DNA of 64,000 nucleotides from Microbacterium barkeri (lineage in GTDB: Bacteria > Actinomycetota > Actinomycetes > Actinomycetales > Microbacteriaceae), in contig NZ_BSEJ01000003.1 of NCBI RefSeq assembly GCF_027921765.1, positions 124,001 to 188,000 of the forward strand, in the 5' to 3' direction. Shown here one piece after another: positions 36,336 to 41,076 of the stretch (positions are counted from its first letter, which is position 1; every line of letters starts with the position of its first letter). Under the pieces are notes generated by a model. That model saw only the letters and a list, made by a program, of their open reading frames with translations. It was not told where the DNA came from and made no database searches. The position numbers and the translations under genes were made by a program.

Positions 36336-36400
36336 GGCACTCCCGTCGCCTGACGGCCCCGCGCGCACCGGGAGTTCACCGACATCCGTAGGCTGGACGG

Positions 36401-38272
36401 GTGCGGTTCGAATCGGGTGCCCCTGACGTCCGGCCCTTCCAGGTCGATCTCCGCGGGGTCGTCGACCTCCTGAGCCGCCACATCTACTCCAGCCCCCAGG
36501 TCTTCCTGCGCGAGCTGCTCCAGAACGGCCGGGACGCCATCCGGGCGCGCCGCGACCTCGACGGAGGAGCTCCCGCCGGCATGCTCGAGATCGAGCCGGC
36601 CGCCTCCGGACGTCCCTTCCGCTTCCGCGACAACGGCGTGGGCCTCACGGCCGAGGAGGCCGCCGAGCTGCTGTCGACCGTGGGGCGCTCGTCGAAGCGC
36701 GACGACCTCCTGCAGGCCCGACGCGCGGACTACCTCGGCCAGTTCGGCATCGGCCTGCTGAGCTGCTTCATGGTGGCCGACCGGATCGTGGTGCGCAGCC
36801 GATCGGCGAAGGGCGCGCCCGCGATCGAGTGGATCGGCGACGCATCGGGGCAGTTCGGCATCCGGGAGCTCGACCCGGAGGAGACCGCGCGGATGGCCGT
36901 GGGCACCGAGATCGTGCTGGAGCCGCGCCCCGACGACGCGGCTCTGCTCGCGCCCGACCGCGTCCGGGCCCTCGCGACGCGCTTCGGGCAGTACCTGCCG
37001 GTCTCGGTCGCCATCCGCAACGACGACGCCACGCTCGACACCGTCACCCGCACGCCCGTCTTCCTCGGGGCCGCGGCGGATGAGCCGTCCGACGAGCTCC
37101 TCGCGCTGGGCACGGAGCTGCTCGGCCGGCGGCCGCTCGACGTCATCCCGCTCTCCGTCCCGGGGACGGGGACGGAGGGTGTGGCGTTCGTGCTCCCGTT
37201 CGCGCCGCCGCCCGGTGCGCGCCAGGCGAGCACGGTGCACCTGGGTCGGATGCTCGTGAGCGAGCACCTGGACGGCCTGCTGCCCGACTGGGCCTTCTTC
37301 GCCCGATGCGTGCTCGACACGACGGGGCTCTCGCCGACCGCGAGCCGCGAGGCCTTCGTGGAGGACCCCGCGCTCGAGCACACGCGCGAGCAGCTGGGTG
37401 CCGCCATCCGCGCGTGGATCCTGCGGCAGGCGACCACCCGGCCGTGGAAGTTCCAGGAGTTCCTCGCCGTGCACCAGCTCGCGCTCAAGGCGATGGCGGC
37501 TCACGACGACGAGCTCGCGCGCACGGTGCTGCCGTGGCTGACCGTCGAGACGTCGGCGGGCGACATGACCATCGCCGACCTGACCCGGCGGCACGACGCG
37601 GCGCGCTACGCCGAGACGGTCGACGAATTCCGCCAGGTCGCGGCGATCGTGCCGTCCGACGCTCCCGTCGTGAACGGCGGATACGCGTACGACGCCGCGC
37701 TGCTGCGGCGGCTGCCCGAGCTGCTGGACTTCCCCGTCTCGCGGGTCACCGCGAGCGAGCTCCTCGACGAGCTCACGCCGCCTCCGCTCGCCGAGCGGGC
37801 GAGGGCCGTCGCGCTCGAGGAGCGGGCCACGGCCGCGCTGGCCGAGGTGGGCTGCTCGGTCTCGGCTCGCGGGTTCGCTCCCGCTGAGCTGTCCGCGCTC
37901 TGCGTCGTGGATCCCGAGGTCGTGCGCCGCATCGAGCGCGACAGCGCGCGCGAGGTCGCATCCGGCGGGATCTGGGGCGACGTGCTCGGCGACGTGAGCG
38001 CCCTCATCGAGGAGCGCCGTCGCGAGGACGGCAGGGAGGCCGCGACCGTGCGCCTCTGCCTGAACTGGACGAGCCCGCTCGTCGCGCGCCTCGCGGCGCT
38101 CGGCGACGACCTCGTCTTCGACCGCACGGTCAAGCTGCTGTACGTGCAGGCGCTGCTCGCGTCGCATCGGCCGCTCACCGCGGCCGATCGCCGGATGCTG
38201 ACGTCGGCGATGAACGACATGGTGACCCTGAGCGTCGGGATCGCCGGAGACCTCGAAGGGGAACAGGCATGA
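36401..38272 (+). CDS. Hsp90/HtpG-like ATPase
   Basis: The 623-residue protein has the length and domain order of HtpG. The GHKL ATPase domain retains Glu38 and Asn42 (FLRELLQNGRDAI), Asp77 in FRDNGVG and the GQFGIGLLS lid-hinge motif at 113-121. The middle domain keeps LPDWAFFARCVLDTTGLSPT followed by the Arg-containing SRE loop. A divergent C-terminal part of about 250 residues follows. Sequence elsewhere is distant from standard HtpG, so it is better called a paralogue. TAGGCT (36389-36394) lies six bases before the GTG at 36401. The downstream TPR gene overlaps by four bases, indicating joint action. Confidence 0.87.
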   Translation: MRFESGAPDVRPFQVDLRGVVDLLSRHIYSSPQVFLRELLQNGRDAIRARRDLDGGAPAGMLEIEPAASGRPFRFRDNGVGLTAEEAAELLSTVGRSSKRDDLLQARRADYLGQFGIGLLSCFMVADRIVVRSRSAKGAPAIEWIGDASGQFGIRELDPEETARMAVGTEIVLEPRPDDAALLAPDRVRALATRFGQYLPVSVAIRNDDATLDTVTRTPVFLGAAADEPSDELLALGTELLGRRPLDVIPLSVPGTGTEGVAFVLPFAPPPGARQASTVHLGRMLVSEHLDGLLPDWAFFARCVLDTTGLSPTASREAFVEDPALEHTREQLGAAIRAWILRQATTRPWKFQEFLAVHQLALKAMAAHDDELARTVLPWLTVETSAGDMTIADLTRRHDAARYAETVDEFRQVAAIVPSDAPVVNGGYAYDAALLRRLPELLDFPVSRVTASELLDELTPPPLAERARAVALEERATAALAEVGCSVSARGFAPAELSALCVVDPEVVRRIERDSAREVASGGIWGDVLGDVSALIEERRREDGREAATVRLCLNWTSPLVARLAALGDDLVFDRTVKLLYVQALLASHRPLTAADRRMLTSAMNDMVTLSVGIAGDLEGEQA

Positions 38273-41076
38273 GCGCACCCGGAAGCCGCAAGGCGCGGAA
38301 GATCGAGCGGCTTCTCGAGGAGGCGGCGGAGCTTCCGGTCGGACCGGAGGAGCGCGCGCTGCTCGACGAGGCCGTGCGGCTCGCCGACGAGGCGGGCGAG
38401 GAGGAGCTCGCCTATCGCGCGCGCATGCACCTCACCCCGTCGGCGCACATGGCGGGCGACACCGACACGATGCTCGCGTCGTTCGGATGGTGCGTCGGCA
38501 AGCACGATGCGGACCCCGTGCGCTTTCCGATCGACCCCGGCGTGCACGTCGACCTGCTGTTCCAGTACAAGTGGATGGCCGGGCGGCTCGCGAGCAACAG
38601 CCGGTTCCCGCGGGAGCGCGTCACCGCGCTGCACGCCGACATGGAGCGGCGCTATCGCGAGGCCGGCGTCGGCCAGACCGGCGTCCTGCAGTCCCGACAC
38701 GACGTCGCGCTGCTGCTCGGCGACCCGGATGCGGCCGCGCGCTTCCTCATCGAGCGCGACGGACTCGAGCGAGACGACTACTCGCACTGCGAGGCGTGCG
38801 TGCGCTCGAGCGACGCGACCTTCGCCCAGCTGCGGGGAGACGATGCCGAGGCCATCCGGCTGTGGGAGGAGATCCTCGAGCAGGGCCTCTCGTGCGGGGA
38901 GGAGCCCGAGTTCGCCGAGTCGGAGGCGCTGCTCCCGCTTCTGAGGGCGGGGCGCGTCGAGGAGGCGCTCGCCGCCCACGCCCGCAGCTACCGCGCGGCC
39001 CGGACCAACCCGGACGGCTTCCCCATCATCGCCAACCACCTCGTCTTCTGCGCGGTGACCGGCAACCTCGCGCGCGGGCTCCAGCTGCTCGAGCGGCACA
39101 TCGACGGGCTCGCGCACGACCCCTTCCACGAGGCGAACCACTTCTCGGGACTCGCCGCCGTCGGCGTCCTCCTCGACGCGGTCGTCGAGGCGGGGGAGGG
39201 AGCGACCCGGGTGCGCGGCTCCGACCATCCGACCCTCGAGCCGCTCCTGGGCGCCGCGGACGGGCCGCGGACCGCGGGCGAGCTGCGGGATGCGGCGTGG
39301 TCGGCCGCCGAGACGATCGCGGCGCGCTTCGACGCGCGCAACGGGAACGACTGGTTCGCCCGCACGCTGGCCGGCAAGCGGGCCCTGAGCGCGCAGCGCT
39401 GGGAGGCGCCGTTCGGCGGTGAGAGCTACGCGCCGCCCGTCGTCGACGACGCGGAGCCCGCTGACGCGGCCGGATGGCTGACGCGCGCCCGTCGGCGCCT
39501 CTTCGCGGCCGACCTCGATGGCGTGCGGGCGGCCGTCGCCGCAGGCCTCGCGCTCGGAGAGGGCGACCACGATGCCGAGCTGCATCGCGTGCTCCTCTAC
39601 GCGCAGCTCGAGAGCGGCGACGACGAGGCCGCCCGGGCCACTCTGGCCCTGCGGACCGCGGCCCTGCGCGCCCACGGTCTCACCGAGCACGCGGACCTCG
39701 AGGAGCGTCTCGGCCTGCTGCTGCTCGGCCGGTGCACCCCCGACGACATCCCGACGCTCGAGGCGGAGATCGAGCGCGCACGCGCCGCGCACCTGCCGGC
39801 GACGGTCGTCGCCGACCTGCTCATCACGATCGGCGCCGCCCGCCTGCGCGCCGCGCAGCCCGAGGCCGCGCTCGCCGCTCTCGACGAGGCGGAGGTGCTT
39901 CTCCCCGCCGACGACCCGCTCCTGCTGCGCCACGCGCTCGAGAGCGAGCGGCTCCAGGCGCTCATCCAGCTCGGACGAGCGGAAGAGGCCGACGCGCTCG
40001 CCGCGTCGCGCATCGACGACCGCGCGAACGCCGGGTGGCCGCTGTTCTCCGAGCTACGCCTGCGCGCCCAGGTGCTCGGCGGTCAGGGGCGCTTCGACGA
40101 GGCGCTGGGCTTCGCGGAGCGGCTTCTCGCGGAGTCGGTCGCGATCGACGTCGCGGGCCTCATCGCGTCGTCGGCACAGCTCACCGCCATGATCCTCAGC
40201 GACCTCGGGAGGCCCGAGGAGGCCGCGGCGCGCATCGAGTTCGCCCTGCGCCATGCCGAGCGGGCTGAGCTGCCCACGGTCGGCCTGCGGTTCAACCTCG
40301 CGCGCATCCAGCTCGAGGCGGGTCAGGCGGCCGCCGGCCTGGAGAACCTCGAGACGGTCTACCTCGAGGAGAAGGCGACGGGCGCTGCTCCCGAGGCGGT
40401 GGCCGAGACCGGTCTCCATCTCGGGCACGCCGCCCTCGCGAACGACGAGCCGGGGATGGCGTATCGCGCATGGAGCGAGGCGATCGACCTCGCGGAAGGG
40501 GCGGAGGCCTTCGGGCTGGCCGCCGAGGCGGGCTCCGCACTCGGCGAGCTGCTGCTCCGCTTCGGCGACCCCGACGCGCGCGACGTGTTCGAGCGCGCGC
40601 TCGAGCACGGGCGGCGCGTCGAGGGCTTCCGGGGGATGCCCGCGCTCCTGCACGGGATGGGCCGCGCGCGGCTGATGGGCGGCGACGAGGCGGGATTCGC
40701 GGACCTCGACGCGGCGACCGCCCAGGCGGAGGCCGAGGACGCGGTCTGGTACGCCGCGAACGTGCAGGACACGAAGGGGCGCTTCCTCGTCGACGCCGGC
40801 CGCCTCGACGAGGGCGTGCGCGTCCTCCTCGCCTCGGCCGACGTGCTCGCGCGCGAGGGCGACGTCATGACGGCAGCGGGCGGCGAGGTGTACGCCGCGC
40901 GCGGTCTGGCGGCGGCCGACCGCGCGGACGAGGCCGTCGCGGTGATGGCGAGCGCCCGCGATCGGGTGTCCGTCGGCACGGCAGCGCACACGGGGATCAG
41001 CCTCGAGCTCGCCGACCTGCTCGACGGGCTGGGCCGCGGCGCCGAGGCGGCGCAGGTGCGCGCGAGCGTCGCGTAG
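38269..41076 (+). CDS. Large TPR-like helical-repeat protein, probable partner of the Hsp90-like ATPase
   Basis: The 935-residue protein is composed almost entirely of paired helices with the spacing of tetratricopeptide repeats, for example YRARMHLTPSAHMAGDTDTM, EEALAAHARSYRAARTNPDG, LRAAQPEAALAALDEAEVLL and DEALGFAERLLAESVAIDV. There is no signal peptide, membrane span or catalytic motif. Its start codon overlaps the Hsp90-like stop, so both are made in fixed ratio. By analogy to eukaryotic TPR co-chaperones it may present clients or regulate the ATPase; bacterial Hsp90 lacks the MEEVD tail, and this one ends LEGEQA, so the contact would be different. Confidence 0.78.
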   Translation: MSAPGSRKARKIERLLEEAAELPVGPEERALLDEAVRLADEAGEEELAYRARMHLTPSAHMAGDTDTMLASFGWCVGKHDADPVRFPIDPGVHVDLLFQYKWMAGRLASNSRFPRERVTALHADMERRYREAGVGQTGVLQSRHDVALLLGDPDAAARFLIERDGLERDDYSHCEACVRSSDATFAQLRGDDAEAIRLWEEILEQGLSCGEEPEFAESEALLPLLRAGRVEEALAAHARSYRAARTNPDGFPIIANHLVFCAVTGNLARGLQLLERHIDGLAHDPFHEANHFSGLAAVGVLLDAVVEAGEGATRVRGSDHPTLEPLLGAADGPRTAGELRDAAWSAAETIAARFDARNGNDWFARTLAGKRALSAQRWEAPFGGESYAPPVVDDAEPADAAGWLTRARRRLFAADLDGVRAAVAAGLALGEGDHDAELHRVLLYAQLESGDDEAARATLALRTAALRAHGLTEHADLEERLGLLLLGRCTPDDIPTLEAEIERARAAHLPATVVADLLITIGAARLRAAQPEAALAALDEAEVLLPADDPLLLRHALESERLQALIQLGRAEEADALAASRIDDRANAGWPLFSELRLRAQVLGGQGRFDEALGFAERLLAESVAIDVAGLIASSAQLTAMILSDLGRPEEAAARIEFALRHAERAELPTVGLRFNLARIQLEAGQAAAGLENLETVYLEEKATGAAPEAVAETGLHLGHAALANDEPGMAYRAWSEAIDLAEGAEAFGLAAEAGSALGELLLRFGDPDARDVFERALEHGRRVEGFRGMPALLHGMGRARLMGGDEAGFADLDAATAQAEAEDAVWYAANVQDTKGRFLVDAGRLDEGVRVLLASADVLAREGDVMTAAGGEVYAARGLAAADRADEAVAVMASARDRVSVGTAAHTGISLELADLLDGLGRGAEAAQVRASVA

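Follow-up and report, generated by a model that had tools for sequence, protein, structure and literature searches.

A conserved pair of genes for a non-canonical Hsp90 and an adjoining TPR-type protein in Actinomycetota

The question raised by this locus is whether bacteria possess an Hsp90 with a dedicated TPR partner. Eukaryotic Hsp90 works with TPR co-chaperones such as Hop, FKBP51/52 and PP5. According to the accessible text of a 2013 study, no obligate Hsp90 co-chaperone had been identified in bacteria by that time (PMC3708813). In the window analysed here, a stretch of 64,000 nucleotides (C3:124001-188000 of the 3.5-Mb genome G000), an Hsp90 gene is directly followed by a gene for a TPR-type protein (Table 1), and a preliminary description of this DNA had proposed that the two constitute a dedicated bacterial Hsp90–TPR pair.

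Table 1. Positions within the window of the features of the hsp90–tpr gene pair
Feature	Position	Strand	Remark
TAGGCT, possible -10 element of a leaderless promoter	36389..36394	+	pattern only; 6 bases before GTG
Hsp90 gene, NF010683/PRK14083 family	36401..38272	+	GTG start; 623 aa; N-M-C architecture
Glu38, invariant GHKL catalytic glutamate	36512..36514	+	alignment of 42 members
Arg316, invariant, on middle-domain S-R-E	37346..37348	+	alignment of 42 members and phmmer alignment to TRAP1
ATGA, hsp90 stop overlapping tpr start	38269..38272	+	four bases common to both genes
TPR partner gene tpr, predicted all-helical solenoid	38269..41076	+	ATG start; 935 aa
Conserved partner core, residues about 1-382	38269..39414	+	Listeria and Paenibacillus partners consist of this part
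C174-x2-C177 motif	38788..38799	+	each Cys in 58/61 rows and 5/5 further rows
C209 of the C-x3-P motif	38893..38895	+	58/61 rows and 5/5 further rows
D355-x-R357-N358 motif	39331..39342	+	D 61/61, R 60/61, N 59/61, and 5/5 further rows
Variable C-terminal TPR superhelix, residues 400-935	39466..41073	+	absent in three Bacillota pair records

The Hsp90 of the window and its relation to HtpG

The Hsp90 of the window scored 692.5 bits against the profile NF010683 (PRK14083, 'HSP90 family protein'; cut-off 455), with residues 11–613 covered, and 151.8 bits against the HtpG profile NF003555 (cut-off 371), confirming the previously noted distance from ordinary HtpG. The match to NF010683 extends over the whole length and reveals no difference for the Hsp90 itself, but the one-line description of that model makes no mention of an adjoining TPR protein. 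A structure search with the AlphaFold2 model (pLDDT 88.8, pTM 0.82) showed that TRAP1 and other Hsp90s superpose with it across the N-terminal, middle and C-terminal domains, the full-length TRAP1 chain 7kcl_B being matched over 535 residues (Z 29.6, 5.3 Å). The N-M-C fold is also common to canonical HtpG, and E. coli HtpG chains can be aligned with the N-terminal domain. In an alignment of 42 family members, Glu38, Asn42, Asp77, Gly79, Gly81, Thr169 and Arg316 were invariant, as was Gly113-x-Phe115-Gly116-x-Gly118; the GHKL catalytic residues and GxxG motifs that had been pointed out in the window protein are thereby retained in all of these relatives. Judged from these alignments, the ATPase residues of the window Hsp90 are intact, including the GHKL motifs and the middle-domain Arg.

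Phylogenetic analysis placed ten rows labelled canonical HtpG, five of which scored as HtpG by profile, in a group apart from the paired lineage with support of 100/100 in a tree that includes long branches, and the nearest named relatives of the window Hsp90, both in the tree and among its relatives, were Microbacteriaceae. The preliminary description had asked for a canonical htpG elsewhere in the window genome; a search of this genome recovered no Hsp90 besides the window protein. Since no second Hsp90 was found, the objection that this protein is simply the only HtpG of the organism holds literally for the window genome alone, but its score does not make the protein an HtpG, and in each of six other pair-bearing genomes (G023, G235, G246, G466, G469, G539) the companion Hsp90 is a canonical HtpG (729–773 bits). 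Divergent second HTPG copies have been reported, for example in Streptomyces coelicolor (638 and 615 aa), and the accessible text of that work, which deals with HTPG Groups A–C, describes second copies with no partner gene mentioned (Chen et al. 2006, PMC1525184). A link to the HtpG of Streptomyces hygroscopicus (PMC3603443) was considered and rejected, because its E88G differs from the NF010683-family residue at that position (aligned by eye).

Two further Hsp90-like proteins were encountered. An 807-aa protein of G452 (L147:7053-9476, minus strand) represents a third Hsp90-like kind that falls under both family cut-offs and sits on a very long branch. On a Pseudanabaena plasmid (L154:5213-10795), an 877-aa Hsp90-like protein is encoded near TIR-domain, DEAD/DEAH helicase and TPR genes, and this stretch is possibly a defence island.

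As for expression, a leaderless promoter with the element TAGGCT had been suggested for hsp90. The element is present as a pattern, and the two closest relatives (L003 and L075) carry the similar TAGATT and CAGATT 7 bases upstream of the start, which fits a leaderless start of hsp90, the promoter function of the element being putative. The described lack of an HspR box extends to the family: in the 300 bases preceding 91 family genes, neither an HspR (HAIR) box with fewer than four mismatches (best site, 4 mismatches) nor a CIRCE operator (best site, 5 mismatches) was found. HAIR-like sites with up to three mismatches occur in the whole window only at 2635, 2657 and 3522; the one at 2635-2655 has a single mismatch and lies far from hsp90.

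The TPR partner and the conservation of the pair

The AlphaFold2 model of the partner (mean pLDDT 94.6, pTM 0.87) comprises 47 helices, with no strand of at least three residues listed, and in the structure search residues 629–935 matched the TPR domain of LGN over 304 residues (Z 26.2, 2.4 Å), a TPR superhelix. The partner is hence predicted to be a TPR solenoid, a protein-binding fold, and the earlier reading of a protein made only of TPR-like helix pairs agrees with the predicted helices, the LGN match being limited to residues 629–935. Because the structure matches fall mainly on residues 511–935 and hardly cover the N-terminal half, claims of a known fold leave out the N-terminal core. 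Searches against NCBIfam, Pfam and PADLOC profiles at E 0.01 gave no match for the window partner, not even to Pfam TPR; the Listeria partners do match TPR models, one of them above the cut-off.

Sequence comparison identifies the first ~320–370 residues as the conserved core. As the partners of Listeria and Paenibacillus have only 320–353 aa, the essential part should lie in these residues, and the C-terminal TPR array seems to be an extension of the actinobacterial partners. K101, C174, C177, C209, P213, D355, R357 and N358 are kept in at least 57 of 61 partner rows and in all five further rows, namely four from Bacillota and one Actinomyces orphan. The CxxC...CxxxP and DxRN motifs of the core are not known from Hop, FKBP51/52 or PP5. 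A zinc site formed by the three Cys and C261 was discarded as a candidate, given that C261, His237 and His257 are kept in none of the four Bacillota rows and only three Cys remain.

The pair was followed through several samples of Actinomycetota. Among the best 80 of 82 confirmed relatives of the window Hsp90, a partner homologue lay directly downstream in 78 loci, and the other two (L069 and L071) end inside hsp90. The gap from hsp90 to the first possible partner start is small in most loci and amounts to 61 to 162 bases in L008, L028 and L037. A phylum survey of 296 genomes yielded 12 Hsp90 copies above the NF010683 cut-off in 10 genomes, each with the partner core beside it; a class survey of 394 genomes yielded 53 copies in 46 genomes, with the partner beside 52 by comparison of coordinates. 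These 46 genomes include the ten of the phylum survey, and the other 36 were searched together with 44 chosen negatives. Of 14 control genomes, two also exceeded the NF010683 cut-off. Four of 12 same-genus genomes carry an NF010683-type Hsp90. In all seven two-copy genomes (G023, G161, G461, G478, G531, G624, G648) both copies adjoin a partner, and none of the 20 sub-cut-off Hsp90 loci (L093–L112) showed a partner core within their short flanks. The assembled set contains 131 pairs (126 without near-copies; a small number of loci taken from different collections may stem from one genome), and the four-base overlap that had been noted between the two window genes is possible in 69 of the 131.

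The exception to the pairing is an NF010683-type Hsp90 without a partner in G419 (L146:7593-9479). Its membership of NF010683 is borderline (479 bits as a protein, 454 for the main piece in the genome survey), its C-terminal domain matches poorly, and in the tree, where long branches are placed unsurely, it forms a long branch adjoining Microbacteriaceae. The placement is as would be expected after partner loss, with a C-terminal domain that looks as if relaxed by the loss. One hsp90 of a Micromonosporaceae metagenome assembly (L034:3061-8370) has two partner genes in tandem behind it, as in one Listeria record. The candidate hsp90–tpr gene fusion was rejected, because the sole fused ORF (L062) results from an hsp90 frameshift and the remaining Hsp90 profile matches another frame.

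The gene neighbourhood was counted within 6 kb at 77 loci, which represent 24 lineages at 75% Hsp90 identity; gene calling relied on a simple rule of G+C by codon position. Beside the pair, no further gene proved to be widely conserved, and the best neighbour family occurred in 5 of the 24 lineages. Within the window's own family the position of the pair differs between genomes: it adjoins ORFs read by eye as secE–nusG in G438 and G457 and an ORF read by eye as a NagD-like phosphatase in G474 and G483. In the window, the characterised neighbours are a beta-lactamase-family gene and a BCCT transporter. The expectation that the genes would part company in relatives, set beforehand as the finding that would overturn the proposal, failed in the 78 of 80 loci, in the 52 of 53 class copies and in Paenibacillus and Listeria, and the pairing is not due to chance; that the genes form a conserved two-gene unit is strongly supported.

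The partner beyond Actinomycetota and away from Hsp90

The evidence from Bacillota consists of three plasmid-collection records, some of which are chromosome-sized or chromosome-like. In Paenibacillus cellulosilyticus, hsp90 is followed by a 353-aa partner with a 4-base overlap; one Listeria record contains hsp90 with tandem partners of 324 and 320 aa, and another hsp90 with a single partner. The partner core profile scored 184–215 bits in the Bacillota records. The Listeria partner is presumably lmo0941, as judged from gene order. In the accessible text of one study, lmo0941 shows signatures of selection and is listed as having no known function (PMC6901971). A Priestia plasmid encodes a distant relative of the core (71 bits), with no Hsp90 match within the 12.5 kb covered. 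A whole Hsp90–TPR pair with an ATGA overlap is also present at L170:1915-6488 on a 6.6-kb faecal contig putatively labelled 'Bacteriophage sp.', which may be bacterial DNA. A search for the partner core in viral contigs gave 18 pattern matches, none of which was confirmed.

The core also occurs as an orphan. Partner-only genomes were counted solely in the phylum survey and among the 44 chosen negatives: two strong orphan cores (G171 and G204) were found among the 286 phylum genomes lacking an NF010683 Hsp90, and one (G641) among the 44 negatives. Weak core matches, eight of 18–30 bits in the phylum survey and one of 20 bits in the 36 and 44 genomes, were taken as chance. Extra partner-core copies away from an NF010683 Hsp90 are present in G655 and G466, and another orphan resides on an Actinomyces oris plasmid. 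Directly upstream of the G171 orphan is an IS110-like transposase (by eye).

Several orphans are associated with YbjN. A YbjN domain forms the C-terminal end of the orphan partner in G204 and G466; the G204 orphan comes after a YbjN gene with a 4-base overlap, a similar ORF lies upstream in G466 (by eye), and two YbjN-type genes, one under the Pfam cut-off, precede the A. oris orphan. The YbjN fold resembles that of type III secretion chaperones. The linkage of orphan cores to YbjN, together with this resemblance, suggests that the core may be a general partner of chaperone-like proteins. The positions of the YbjN-linked orphan cores are L129:8532-10609, L145:7939-10019 and L151:4262-8979; each of these three is preceded by YbjN or YbjN-like genes, and the L129 and L145 orphans have a C-terminal YbjN domain of their own.

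Possible roles of the pair and a distant pair in Pseudomonas

Bacteria had been described as lacking the MEEVD tail through which eukaryotic Hsp90 works with TPR co-chaperones. Indeed, among 89 family genes whose stop codon lies within the locus, including the frameshifted L062, no encoded Hsp90 ends in EEVD, in contrast to the eukaryotic system. At the sequence level, an MEEVD contact is excluded as a feature of the NF010683 family, and any contact between Hsp90 and partner must use another surface. With shuffles within coarse clusters, the top-20 and top-100 covariation means exceeded every shuffle in all three settings and the top pair did so in one of three; with 70%-identity clusters and gaps filtered more strictly, the top-20 mean (0.335) stayed below the largest null value (0.338). 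Covariation was dropped as evidence of contact, since the top-20 mean lies within the null under these clusters.

We lean modestly towards the TPR partner being a dedicated, MEEVD-independent co-chaperone or client adaptor of the Hsp90. In such a two-gene chaperone module, the non-canonical Hsp90 would run the usual dimeric ATP-driven clamp cycle, and the TPR protein, probably made from the same message, would serve it as co-chaperone or adaptor; the conserved first ~320–370 residues would dock on the Hsp90 or regulate its ATPase with no need of an MEEVD tail, and in Actinomycetota the variable C-terminal superhelix might recruit clients or other factors. If the two proteins bind, the pair would work like the eukaryotic Hsp90 with its TPR co-chaperones. 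Strict linkage, the absence of a third gene, the TPR fold and the invariant catalytic residues count for a co-chaperone; the partner core without an NF010683 Hsp90, the G419 Hsp90 without a partner and the top-20 covariation within the null for 70%-identity clusters count against it. Of the dedicated pair first proposed, the conserved two-gene unit stands, and Hsp90 binding, a specific client and a stress role are properties it may have.

The strict one-to-one linkage with hsp90 first, the long and variable C-terminal repeats and the presence of only 1 in 53 Hsp90 copies without a partner would also suit a TPR protein that is the dedicated client, with the Hsp90 maintained for folding or stabilising a single long repeat protein as the real effector; this is quite unlikely in view of the small 320–353-aa partner domain in Bacillota and the orphan partners that persist without an NF010683 Hsp90. 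The operon might instead mean co-regulation only, the two proteins acting in the same pathway without touching, as the covariation, which differed from the null in coarse clusters only, and the linkage of the core to YbjN genes at a few loci would allow; however, the pair changes its neighbourhood and yet has no third pathway gene as a widespread companion, and we consider this unlikely.

A module for stress defence or against phages, for instance an Hsp90-like ATPase sensor with a TPR effector or adaptor, would fit the patchy occurrence (46 of the 394 genomes of the class, 4 of 12 in the same genus), the PADLOC matches on the Hsp90 ATPase domain (TmtA/REase models) and the distant Hsp90-like plasmid protein beside TIR and helicase genes. 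It is nevertheless very unlikely, because the PADLOC matches span only about 110–130 Hsp90 residues, short of the whole protein, with none on the TPR protein, and the two characterised neighbours in the window are a beta-lactamase-family protein and a BCCT transporter. That the protein is the organism's ordinary HtpG with an unrelated TPR neighbour is hardly credible: the sole Hsp90 found in the window genome speaks for it, but the score far under the HtpG cut-off, the separate clade, the coexistence with HtpG elsewhere and a partner conserved across phyla speak against it.

Beyond the single pair, we propose tentatively, at somewhat less than an even chance, that the partner core represents a new kind of chaperone-partner domain in bacteria, which acts without MEEVD as the obligate co-chaperone of a non-HtpG Hsp90 lineage in Actinomycetota and Bacillota and in a few lineages also serves YbjN proteins. 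If true, this would constitute a bacterial Hsp90–TPR machine of an origin separate from the eukaryotic one. One partner kept beside one Hsp90 lineage in two phyla is a concrete, testable co-chaperone candidate, and the pair could show whether Hsp90–TPR cooperation arose more than once and explain the role of second Hsp90s where bacteria possess HtpG as well.

In Pseudomonas and Xanthomonas, a gene for a TPR-like protein (764 or 774 aa) comes after a distant Hsp90-like gene, the same order as in the window. The Pseudomonas pair, which we take to be PA1068/PA1069 from the numbers of neighbouring genes, differs in its Hsp90-like protein, which reached 293 bits with NF010683 (cut-off 455), and PA1069 is a distant Pseudomonas case outside this family. 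In hhalign, the window partner core and the Pseudomonas/Xanthomonas partner were related with a probability of 5% (E 0.008); an A1b-profile match (E 0.61) reaches the CxxC stretch, and a Nonomuraea relative of the TPR-like protein is without that CxxC. The loci concerned are L172:5914-10155, L178:5971-10194 and L179:5995-8271 (Pseudomonas, Xanthomonas and the Nonomuraea relative), and the 14-kb stretch of the last contains no Hsp90 match. Literature searches, within the accessible texts, found the conserved pair nowhere described save for the remark that PA1069 appears operonic with Hsp90 (PMC4053335); 'PA1068' in PMC9995270 proved to be a strain name and not the gene. On heat, according to the accessible part of another report, PA1069 changed by -1.98 (log2) and htpG by +2.83 (PMC4957987).
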